Source: Rhodospirillaceae bacterium bin65
GTDB taxonomy: Bacteria > Pseudomonadota > Alphaproteobacteria > Bin65
Assembly (NCBI GenBank): GCA_002238725.1
Contig: MPMX01000012.1
Span: 1 to 64,000 of the forward strand
DNA: 64,000 nt
Direction of reading: 5' to 3'
The notes beneath the pieces are model-generated. The model was not told the DNA's origin. It saw nothing but the letters and a program-made list of their open reading frames with translations, and made no database searches. How positions within the stretch are numbered: the stretch's first letter is position 1; each line of letters starts with the position of its first letter. Positions 49,294-51,212 of this stretch are shown piece by piece. The translations under genes were made by a program, and so were the position numbers.

Positions 49294-49698
49294 TCACGCC
49301 GCCTCCGAACCGGAAGGCTGCGCCGACTCCTCCGGTTCTCCCGCCTCCCCGTCCTCCGAGCGCACCGGGTAGCCGGCGATCGACCAGTCGACAATGCCAC
49401 CGTCCATATGCACGACTTCGCGGAAGCCGGTATCGACGAAGCGTTCGAAATGCTCGGCGGTCCGGCGCCCGGAGCGGCAATGGAAGATGCCGATCTTCCC
49501 GCCGTCGCCCTCGGGCCGCCGGGAATCGAAGTCCGAAAGCGGAAACAGCGCCGCACCGGGGATATGTTCGTCCTCGTACTCGATGAATTCGCGCACGTCG
49601 ATCAGGACGGCTTCGCCGGCCTCCAGCAGCATCTTCGCCCGGTGCACGTCGACCGCCCGCACGGTGATGGTTTTCCTGTCGTTCGAAAGAGTCGCCAT
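49294..49698 (-). CDS. Rhodanese-like domain protein
   Basis: 134 residues, one rhodanese domain. Substrate-loop region VLIDVREFIEYEDEHIPGA and the active-site loop FHCRSGRRT with the catalytic Cys, then VVHMDGGIVDWSIAGYPV. Sulfur transfer from thiosulfate or a persulfide is the family activity. It lies 14 bases after metZ, so it may handle sulfide or persulfide for sulfhydrylation; this link is inference. ATG 49698 gives a compact single domain; longer frames lack similarity. Confidence 0.88.
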   Translation of the reverse strand: MATLSNDRKTITVRAVDVHRAKMLLEAGEAVLIDVREFIEYEDEHIPGAALFPLSDFDSRRPEGDGGKIGIFHCRSGRRTAEHFERFVDTGFREVVHMDGGIVDWSIAGYPVRSEDGEAGEPEESAQPSGSEAA

Positions 49699-49712
49699 GT
49701 CGATCGGTCCTT

Positions 49713-50972
49713 TCAGCAGGCGCCGTGCCCGACCGCGGCGCCCGCACAGTTCAGGGCATGGTCGAGGTCGCGGATCAGGTCGTCGGGATGTTCGAGGCCG
49801 ACCGACAGGCGGATCATGTCGTCGCCGATGCCGACGGCGGCCCGGCCCTCGGCGCCGATGCGGTGGTGCGTCGTCGAGGCCGGATGGGTCGCCAGGCTCT
49901 TGGCGTCGCCCAGATTGTTGGAAATCGGGATCAGTTGAAGGCCATTGAGCAGGCCGAAGGCCTCGCGCCGGCCACCCTCGATCGTGAAGGTCACGACTGT
50001 GCCGCCGTCCTTCATCTGGCGCCGCGCCAATGCTGCCTGCGGATGGGAATCGAGGAAGGGATAGAGCACCCGCCGGACGCCGGCGCGCCGTTCCAGCCAC
50101 TGCGCAATTTTCCCCGCCGTCCGGCACTGGCGTTCGATCCGCACCGACAGGGTTTCCAGCCCTTTCAACAGCACCCAGGCGTTGAACGGGCTCATGCTCG
50201 GCCCGGTGTGGCGAACGAAGGGCGACAGCGCCTCGGTGCAGTATTCCTTCGAGCCCAGGATGGCGCCGCCCAGGCAACGGCCCTGTCCGTCGATATGTTT
50301 GGTGGCCGAGTAGACCGCGACGTCGGCGCCGAGTTCGAGCGGTCGCTGGAGCAGCGGCGTCGCGAACACATTGTCGACCACCACCGTCGCGCCGGCGTTG
50401 TGCGCCAGGTCGGCGACCGCTTTCACGTCGACGATGTCGAGCTGTGGATTGGTCGGGGTTTCCAGGAAGACCGCCTTTGCGGGAGAGGCGAGCGCCCGTT
50501 CCCAGACCGCCAGGTCGGTGCCTTCGACCAACTCGGTGGTGACGCCGAAGCGCGGAAGGATGTCGGTGCAGATATAGGCGCAGGAACCGAACAGGGCGCG
50601 CGAGGCGACCAGCCGGTCTCCCTGGCGCAGCAAGCCGATCAGCGCGGTGAAGACCGCCGACATGCCGCTCGCGGTCGCGACGCCGGCCTCCGCGCCCTCG
50701 ATCGCGCACAACCGGTCGACGAACATCTGCACCGTCGGGTTGCCGTAGCGGCTGTAAACGTAGCGCAGGTCGGTTTTTTCGAACGCTTCCGCCGCTTCTT
50801 CGGCCGAGCCGTAGACATAGCCCGAGGTCAGGTACAGTGCTTCGGCGGTTTCCTCGAAGCGGCTGCGCGCGATACCGCCATGGACGGCGGCGGTGTCGGT
50901 GTGAAGCGGGAGAAGCGGTCCCGGGTTTCGAGCCCCGGGCGGCTGGAACATCTGATTCACGGTCATCCCCAT
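49713..50972 (-). CDS. metZ: O-succinylhomoserine sulfhydrylase
   Basis: 419 residues, Cys/Met metabolism PLP enzyme. PLP lysine in VAVYSATKHIDGQGRCLGG; other motifs YSRYGNPTVQMF, ASGMSAVFTALIGLL and SVGLEHPDDLIRDLDHAL. Makes homocysteine from O-succinylhomoserine and sulfide. Family assignment to MetZ rather than MetB/MetC is supported by the tandem SAM-II-type leader (51011-51180). ATG 50972 was used; ATG 50966 (MTVNQMFQ) is an alternative. Confidence 0.93.
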   Translation of the reverse strand: MGMTVNQMFQPPGARNPGPLLPLHTDTAAVHGGIARSRFEETAEALYLTSGYVYGSAEEAAEAFEKTDLRYVYSRYGNPTVQMFVDRLCAIEGAEAGVATASGMSAVFTALIGLLRQGDRLVASRALFGSCAYICTDILPRFGVTTELVEGTDLAVWERALASPAKAVFLETPTNPQLDIVDVKAVADLAHNAGATVVVDNVFATPLLQRPLELGADVAVYSATKHIDGQGRCLGGAILGSKEYCTEALSPFVRHTGPSMSPFNAWVLLKGLETLSVRIERQCRTAGKIAQWLERRAGVRRVLYPFLDSHPQAALARRQMKDGGTVVTFTIEGGRREAFGLLNGLQLIPISNNLGDAKSLATHPASTTHHRIGAEGRAAVGIGDDMIRLSVGLEHPDDLIRDLDHALNCAGAAVGHGAC

Positions 50973-50991
50973 GGGCTGCCGGTCGGCGGGC

Positions 50992-51013
50992 CCACGGAGA
51001 AAAGCCTCCGTGG
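50992..51013 (-). promoter_or_regulatory. Hairpin between the second SAM-II aptamer and metZ
   Basis: CTCCGTGG and CCACGGAG (51006-51013, 50992-50999 on the plus strand) form an 8-bp perfect stem with a 6-base loop rich in T (GCTTTT on the minus strand). It lies four bases after the GCTAAA pseudoknot strand and about 20 bases before the start codon. It is a likely part of the expression platform. Confidence 0.55.
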
Positions 51014-51066
51014 CGCTTTAGCAGTTGGTGACGCGGATGCAAGCTGCCCGATCAAATCCCGCGGAT
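51011..51066 (-). promoter_or_regulatory. SAM-II riboswitch aptamer, proximal copy
   Basis: Minus strand: P1 arm CGCGG (51063-51059), GATTTG (51058-51053), GCTTGCA (51044-51038), P1 arm CCGCG (51036-51032), then CAACTGCTAAA (ending 51017). This order and the GATTTG, CTTGC and GCTAAA blocks match the metA-type SAM-II aptamer of alphaproteobacteria. The motif lies in front of metZ. Confidence 0.8.
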
Positions 51067-51089
51067 CCGGTAAGGGGGATCGGCCCAAA

Positions 51090-51119
51090 CAAAAAACCCG
51101 TCGCGGCTTCCGGACGGGT
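51090..51119 (-). terminator. Intrinsic terminator after the distal SAM-II aptamer
   Basis: Minus strand: ACCCGTC (51119-51113) pairs with GACGGGT (51102-51096) around a 10-base loop, followed by six Ts. It is a strong rho-independent terminator seven bases after the first aptamer, well before metZ. Confidence 0.8.
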
Positions 51120-51125
51120 CTCCCA

Positions 51126-51180
51126 CCTCTTTAGCCGCATTTCATAAAGCGCCCGCAAGTCGGTCTAAATCGGCGCTTCG
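51126..51180 (-). promoter_or_regulatory. SAM-II riboswitch aptamer, distal copy
   Basis: Minus strand: AAGCGCC (51178-51172), GATTTA, ACCG, CTTGCG, GGCGCTT (51153-51147, pairing perfectly with the first arm), AAATG, GCGGCTAAAG ending near 51129, then AGGTGG. This follows the metX-type SAM-II consensus closely, including the pseudoknot strand GCTAAA. A promoter and a terminator bracket it. Confidence 0.85.
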
Positions 51181-51183
51181 GAT

Positions 51184-51212
51184 CATATGAGGCATCGCCG
51201 GTGCGGCGTCAA
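51184..51212 (-). promoter_or_regulatory. Promoter of the metZ leader
   Basis: Minus strand: TTGACG (51212-51207), exact 17-bp spacer, CATATG (51189-51184). Transcription would start near 51177, that is at the first P1 arm of the distal SAM-II aptamer. Confidence 0.6.

Follow-up and report, generated by a model that had tools for sequence, protein, structure and literature searches.

The 64,000-nucleotide stretch of DNA analysed here, which we call the window, carries metZ on its minus strand, and the assignment made in the initial annotation is confirmed by a TIGR01325 match. Candidate in-frame starts of metZ are ATG 50972, ATG 50966 and GTG 50960, and a rhodanese-domain gene lying directly 3' of it probably shares its transcript. 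Read 5' to 3' on the minus strand, the leader consists of promoter-like boxes, a first aptamer (copy 1), a terminator, a second aptamer (copy 2) and a hairpin, followed by the metZ start; a sequence check found all the motifs that had been described upstream of the gene, each at its given position. The features, from the promoter onwards, are:

51184..51212, minus strand: sigma70-like promoter TTGACG-17-CATATG, assigned by sequence (TTGACG 51212-51207, CATATG 51189-51184)
51126..51180, minus strand: first SAM-II aptamer, type A (RF00521, 28.6 bits; conserved in G001-G005)
51111..51154, minus strand: candidate antiterminator of copy 1, P1 3' strand CGGGCG (51155-51150 region) with terminator CGTCCG (51116-51111 region)
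51090..51119, minus strand: intrinsic terminator of copy 1, ACCCGTC 51119-51113 / GACGGGT 51102-51096 plus six T at 51096-51091
51064..51081, minus strand: hairpin P0 of copy 2, GATCC 51081-51077 / GGATC 51068-51064, before P1
51011..51066, minus strand: second SAM-II-type aptamer core, type B (RF00521, 34.5 bits; own type-B model, with the window in its seed, 99.9 bits)
50992..51013, minus strand: inserted hairpin P3, CCACGGAG(G)/(T)CTCCGTGG, inside the pseudoknot 3' strand
50987..50991, minus strand: distal pseudoknot strand GCCCG, pairing with the aptamer-loop CGGGC at 51050-51046
50966..51000, minus strand: alternative helix P4, TCTCCGTGGGC 51000-50990 / GCCCATGGGGA 50976-50966, 11 bp over ATG 50972
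49713..50972, minus strand: metZ, O-succinylhomoserine sulfhydrylase (NCBIfam TIGR01325, 565 bits against a cut-off of 510)
49294..49710, minus strand: rhodanese-domain protein directly 3' of metZ (PF00581, E 7.9e-15)

We scanned the leader with the two Rfam models that the initial annotation had proposed for checking it, RF00521 (SAM_alpha) and RF01826 (SAM-V). Copy 2 matched RF00521 with an E-value of 6e-6 in the leader scan and 7.5e-6 for the whole genome, and copy 1 with 2.4e-4 and 3.0e-4, respectively; RF01826 gave zero matches at E<=1 in the leader scan. Both RF00521 matches are significant, and both (34.5 and 28.6 bits) lie under the gathering score of 36 bits, which is why a default Rfam scan of the window returned tRNAs only and listed neither aptamer. 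The P1 stem and the ATTT, CTTGC and GCTAAA core of SAM-II are present, and the positions that contact SAM in the shared SAM-II/SAM-V core, namely the UUU third strand, UU and UAAA (PMC6061858), occur in both copies. The initial annotation had held that a tandem would be contradicted if only one region scored above threshold; formally this is the outcome, with both regions below, and it is overridden by the retention of the pair in five congeneric genomes (G001-G005) and by base-pair covariation, so that the proposed tandem of two SAM-II-type aptamers, each with a significant match, stands. Those relatives that have names are MAGs entered under Rhodospirillaceae or Alphaproteobacteria, and the name of at least one points to a sponge association. 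Both promoter boxes are retained in the relatives L036, L037, L039 and L040 despite a diverged spacer. The only congeneric genome without the tandem, G006, the sixth, is also without a close metZ (best match 36% identity), which fits a switch belonging to metZ. In other genera of the same family, a single canonical SAM-II lies just upstream of metZ (G007:C444:53442-53518, 60.3 bits; G009:C47:14119-14196, 62.4 bits), and the riboswitch type at one gene therefore differs between close genera.

Copy 1 has a perfect 7-bp P1 (AAGCGCC 51178-51172 / GGCGCTT 51153-51147) and the core elements GATTTA (51171-51166), CTTGC (51159-51155) and GCTAAAG (51135-51129); a distal pseudoknot of 3 bp is possible (ACC 51164-51162 / GGT 51127-51125), and the permutation test of this helix among type-A elements was not significant, the elements being too alike. 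The strong terminator attributed to the first aptamer in the initial annotation is borne out by its fold (-20.1 kcal/mol, z -3.6, equalled by 0 of 200 shuffles), and a hairpin with a U-run lies downstream of 33 of the 35 distinct type-A elements. The candidate antiterminator is a 6-bp duplex of -10.0 kcal/mol, and its site likewise reads CGGGCG/CGCCCG in relatives, with one compensated change in L069. Among type-A elements, the P1-strand antiterminator was on average no better than shuffled background, and the permutation test for a P2b-strand antiterminator was not significant, again with elements too alike. Type A, the aptamer with a GCGCC/GGCGC stem and a terminator, is always the first copy in the compared tandems and also stands alone, for example before metY of the same genome. 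This last locus (L001, G000:C86:33345-33422) is the third SAM-II match of the genome (40.8 bits) and consists of a single type-A aptamer and terminator ahead of an O-acetylhomoserine sulfhydrylase-like gene.

Copy 2, the type-B element, shares with RF00521 SAM-II the P1, the ATTTG, CTTGC and GCTAAA core, the pseudoknot, the association with methionine genes and the occurrence in Alphaproteobacteria; unlike RF00521 SAM-II, it carries P0 as an additional hairpin on the 5' side and P3 as an insertion that separates the proximal from the distal pseudoknot strand. Its P1 is formed by CGCGG (51063-51059) and CCGCG (51036-51032), and its core by GATTTG (51058-51053), CTTGC (51043-51039) and GCTAAAG (51022-51016). 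The type-B core reads CCGCGG-ATTTGA-(GGGC)AGCTTGC-CCGCGTCACCAA-GCTAAAGCG, then CCACG...CGTGG, with the segments GCGCCAC and CACCAA invariant. Across 101 distinct sequences, both P0 and P1 show covariation; P0 is 93% paired and all 5 of its pairs are changed on both sides, the alignment having been fitted to that structure and thus leaning towards it. The P3 arms (51013-51006 / 50999-50992) fold at -13.9 kcal/mol (z -5.5). In a hand-trimmed, fixed-register alignment (n=28) in which a spacer stood in for the apical part of P3, all cells of P3 (100%) are paired and 5 of its 7 pairs have changes on both sides, and the distal helix between the loop and the post-P3 strand is 90% paired, with compensatory GC to AU/UA changes that 0 of 500 shuffles equal. 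Over 67 loop/partner combinations the distal helix scored 3.63 versus 2.97 (sd 0.13), with 0 of 2000 permutations as good; once GGGC loops are removed the signal is weaker (2.84 versus 2.34, sd 0.18), partly through mis-anchored loci.

Judged by its sequence, copy 2 is a SAM-II variant in which two hairpins are added and the distal pseudoknot strand is displaced past P3. The second SAM-II-like core of the initial annotation is thus present, as a variant unlike ordinary SAM-II, and the 8-bp hairpin noted before metZ exists, sitting inside the pseudoknot 3' strand rather than forming a separate post-aptamer element. Two other pairings were considered and rejected: that of the copy 2 L1 with the adjacent GCC, the canonical site, suits GGGC loops only, and the post-P3 partner is stronger; for an outer helix GGGCC/GGCCC enclosing copy 2, seen by eye, the distal helix accounts better for GCCC.

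A covariance model (R1) built from nine type-B sequences, the window among them, gives matches in 74 of the 386 alphaproteobacterial genomes sampled, with nearly all type-B matches at 45 bits or above and ordinary SAM-II near 29 bits. All 14 type-B-positive genomes of a phylum-wide sample belong to the same class, Alphaproteobacteria, and plasmid-borne type B was found under the names Azospirillum, Niveispirillum, Microvirga, Roseomonas, Tistrella, Novosphingobium, Sphingobium and Methylobacterium. Seventeen sampled genomes, from eight other families, combine the two types, always with type A first and a U-run between the copies; an exact-pattern scan of GTDB yielded eight such tandems, among them Aquibaculum arenosum and a Kiloniellales MAG. 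When 19 tandem loci were rescanned with RF00521, the cut-off was reached by seven first copies and by none of the second, and surveys run at the Rfam threshold would therefore overlook these tandems. None of the 20 stand-alone type-B loci reached it either, most being without any match at E<=1, and type B fell under the gathering score in 40 of 40 loci scanned. The Rfam SAM-II model thus keeps below threshold an uncatalogued variant that is widespread in Alphaproteobacteria. In an earlier survey, SAM-II was confined to Rhizobiales and Rhodobacterales, with none reported in nine Rhodospirillales genomes (PMC4239095), a gap that type B partly fills.

Among the 93 type-B loci, which are not independent, a type-A terminator switch lies in front of 23, and about 70 have type B without type A. 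This bears on whether copy 1 could be the sole working switch and copy 2 a decayed duplicate, as the lack of a terminator and of a canonical adjacent distal strand in copy 2 might indicate. We strongly disfavour such decay and give it scarcely any credence: copy 2 scores higher than copy 1 against RF00521, its helices covary, and type B is mostly found on its own.

The initial annotation had been uncertain how often tandem SAM-II copies had been reported. Sherlock et al. 2022 give 44 cases, which like the present one have two SAM-II per leader, some with a terminator first and an RBS second (PMC9481103); the comparison is by description. The tandem arrangement itself is therefore already known, and the type-B copy is what is new. 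Terminator-first, translation-second order is shared by the Pelagibacter SAM-II/SAM-V tandem, whereas copy 2 here is without a SAM-V match at E<=1. In S. meliloti, where metZ and metA switches have been studied, metZ is likewise under a terminator-type SAM-II, but with one single aptamer per gene (PMC9373788). In the literature searched, with few subscription journals, no paper judged by title and abstract describes such a hairpin insertion in a SAM-II, and nothing turned up on Azospirillum SAM-II, sul1 RNA or Cys leader attenuation.

No terminator follows copy 2. The P4 duplex, which is mutually exclusive with P3 and overlaps the distal helix, has -25.1 kcal/mol in the window, within the best 2% of all pairings, and isolated 50955-51016 folds into P4 as its MFE structure. 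Across loci, the P3 3' arm with the next bases complements the start region of its own locus better than swapped ones (mean -18.4 versus -15.7 kcal/mol), a locus-specific complementarity with a permutation z of -8.0 over 66 loci; elsewhere, P4-type pairing covers the Shine-Dalgarno (for example 9 bp in L096, 11 bp in L076). The energies of the P3 and P4 states are close, which is favoured varies by locus, and their comparison points to neither direction of control. Because the 11-bp alternative helix can sequester the start region, copy 2 plausibly acts at the level of translation. In L066, L070, L073 and L085 (family f38), type B has a degenerate P3, and the distal strand GCCCC itself appears complementary to the Shine-Dalgarno.

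Type-B elements lie ahead of methionine biosynthesis and sulfur assimilation genes, their neighbours being metZ, metY, metX, metA, metF, metE, cysG, SUMT, cysH, sulfate/sulfonate-type binding proteins, MetN and MetQ; type B thereby widens the SAM-II regulon beyond the methionine genes, to the reduction and uptake of sulfate. In 28 of the 93 loci (L078, L092, L108, L111, L112, L115, L135, L147 and 20 more), a short, Shine-Dalgarno-preceded, Cys-rich ORF begins soon after the element, with endings such as MTTCCP, MTCCCP, ...CCCRR and ...RCRCRT, as compared to a mean of 0.7 and a maximum of 4 in 200 shuffled controls. None of the 28 is a tandem locus; the Cys-rich motif is also found downstream of the Azospirillum brasilense Sp 7 copy (L150). 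On sequence grounds this suggests candidate leader peptides and cysteine-dependent attenuation downstream of a SAM-type element, and it connects such an aptamer with Cys-rich leader ORFs.

We consider it likely that the metZ leader as a whole is a two-stage SAM switch composed of a terminator copy 1 and a translational copy 2, both OFF. SAM-stabilised P1 and pseudoknot of copy 1 would block the antiterminator, so that transcription stops. In copy 2, the P3 3' arm would pair either with the P3 5' arm or, as P4, with the start region, the P4 state hiding the start codon; repression at high SAM is the most likely outcome, since metZ belongs to the methionine pathway and copy 1 is an OFF device. 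What the sequences show is that both copies are present and conserved, that P0, P1, P3 and the distal helix covary, and that P4 is complementary to the start region; we infer that each copy binds SAM, that the direction is OFF, and in what order the events occur. The two-stage switch is supported by the significant RF00521 matches, the conservation and recurrence of the pair, the covariation, the locus-specific P4 complementarity, the SAM-contacting positions, the type-B neighbour genes and the type-A switch with a terminator at metY of the same genome; the sub-cut-off Rfam scores of both copies, the similar energies of the P3 and P4 states and the non-significant type-A antiterminator and distal helix speak against it, as does the simplest fold of copy 2. 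A ligand stabilising P3 and the distal helix would exclude P4 and open the start site, and therefore SAM would activate.

On that reading SAM would turn copy 2 ON at the level of translation, against the effect of copy 1, with band-pass or buffered metZ expression as the result, or copy 2 would gate leader ORFs elsewhere. In the window, the start-hiding P4 cannot coexist with P3 or the distal helix; this exclusion, the P4 structure of the isolated segment and the conserved P4 complementarity all agree with activation, and where the Cys-rich leader is the gated ORF its activation could repress the operon. We nevertheless regard an ON switch as unlikely, given that the direct targets metZ, metY, metX and cysG ought to be SAM-repressed and that it would be odd for one gene to combine ON and OFF devices. 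Huang and Lilley argue that in many SAM-II RNAs the distal helix forms whether or not the ligand is bound (PMC6061858), and secondary structure alone therefore cannot set the direction. Repression is favoured by the methionine and sulfur genes downstream of type B and by the type-A terminator switch that accompanies it, and we estimate that SAM is clearly more likely to repress than to activate at copy 2. One way out of the contradiction, which type B makes testable, would be a bound state built on the invariant GCGCC adjacent to GCTAAAG, with the post-P3 strand set free. The two-stage gate of the initial annotation thus keeps its copy 1 terminator and, plausibly, a translational copy 2, at which SAM would either block translation or free it.

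Copy 2 might also keep the SAM-II fold and sense a different ligand as its readout of sulfur or cysteine status. The reach of the type-B regulon to sulfate/sulfonate uptake and CysH would suit such a ligand, as would the distinct sequence family with its invariant GCGCCAC and CACCAA; with all named SAM-contact core positions unchanged and met genes prominent among the targets, we find a change of ligand very improbable. A broader and speculative proposal, to which we assign a small but real chance, is that type B constitutes a separate SAM-II-derived class, with a pseudoknot hairpin and translation control, that either activates or senses a different sulfur signal, with a Cys-rich leader ORF under its control in roughly one third of loci. 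If true, together with the leader ORFs it would give a joint SAM-and-cysteine decision. Several type-B/leader loci are followed by a recurrent small protein of about 76-124 aa with the motif AGxAxR..GFRFxxAxxRF (L101, L110, L135 and L136), without a Pfam match in those scanned.
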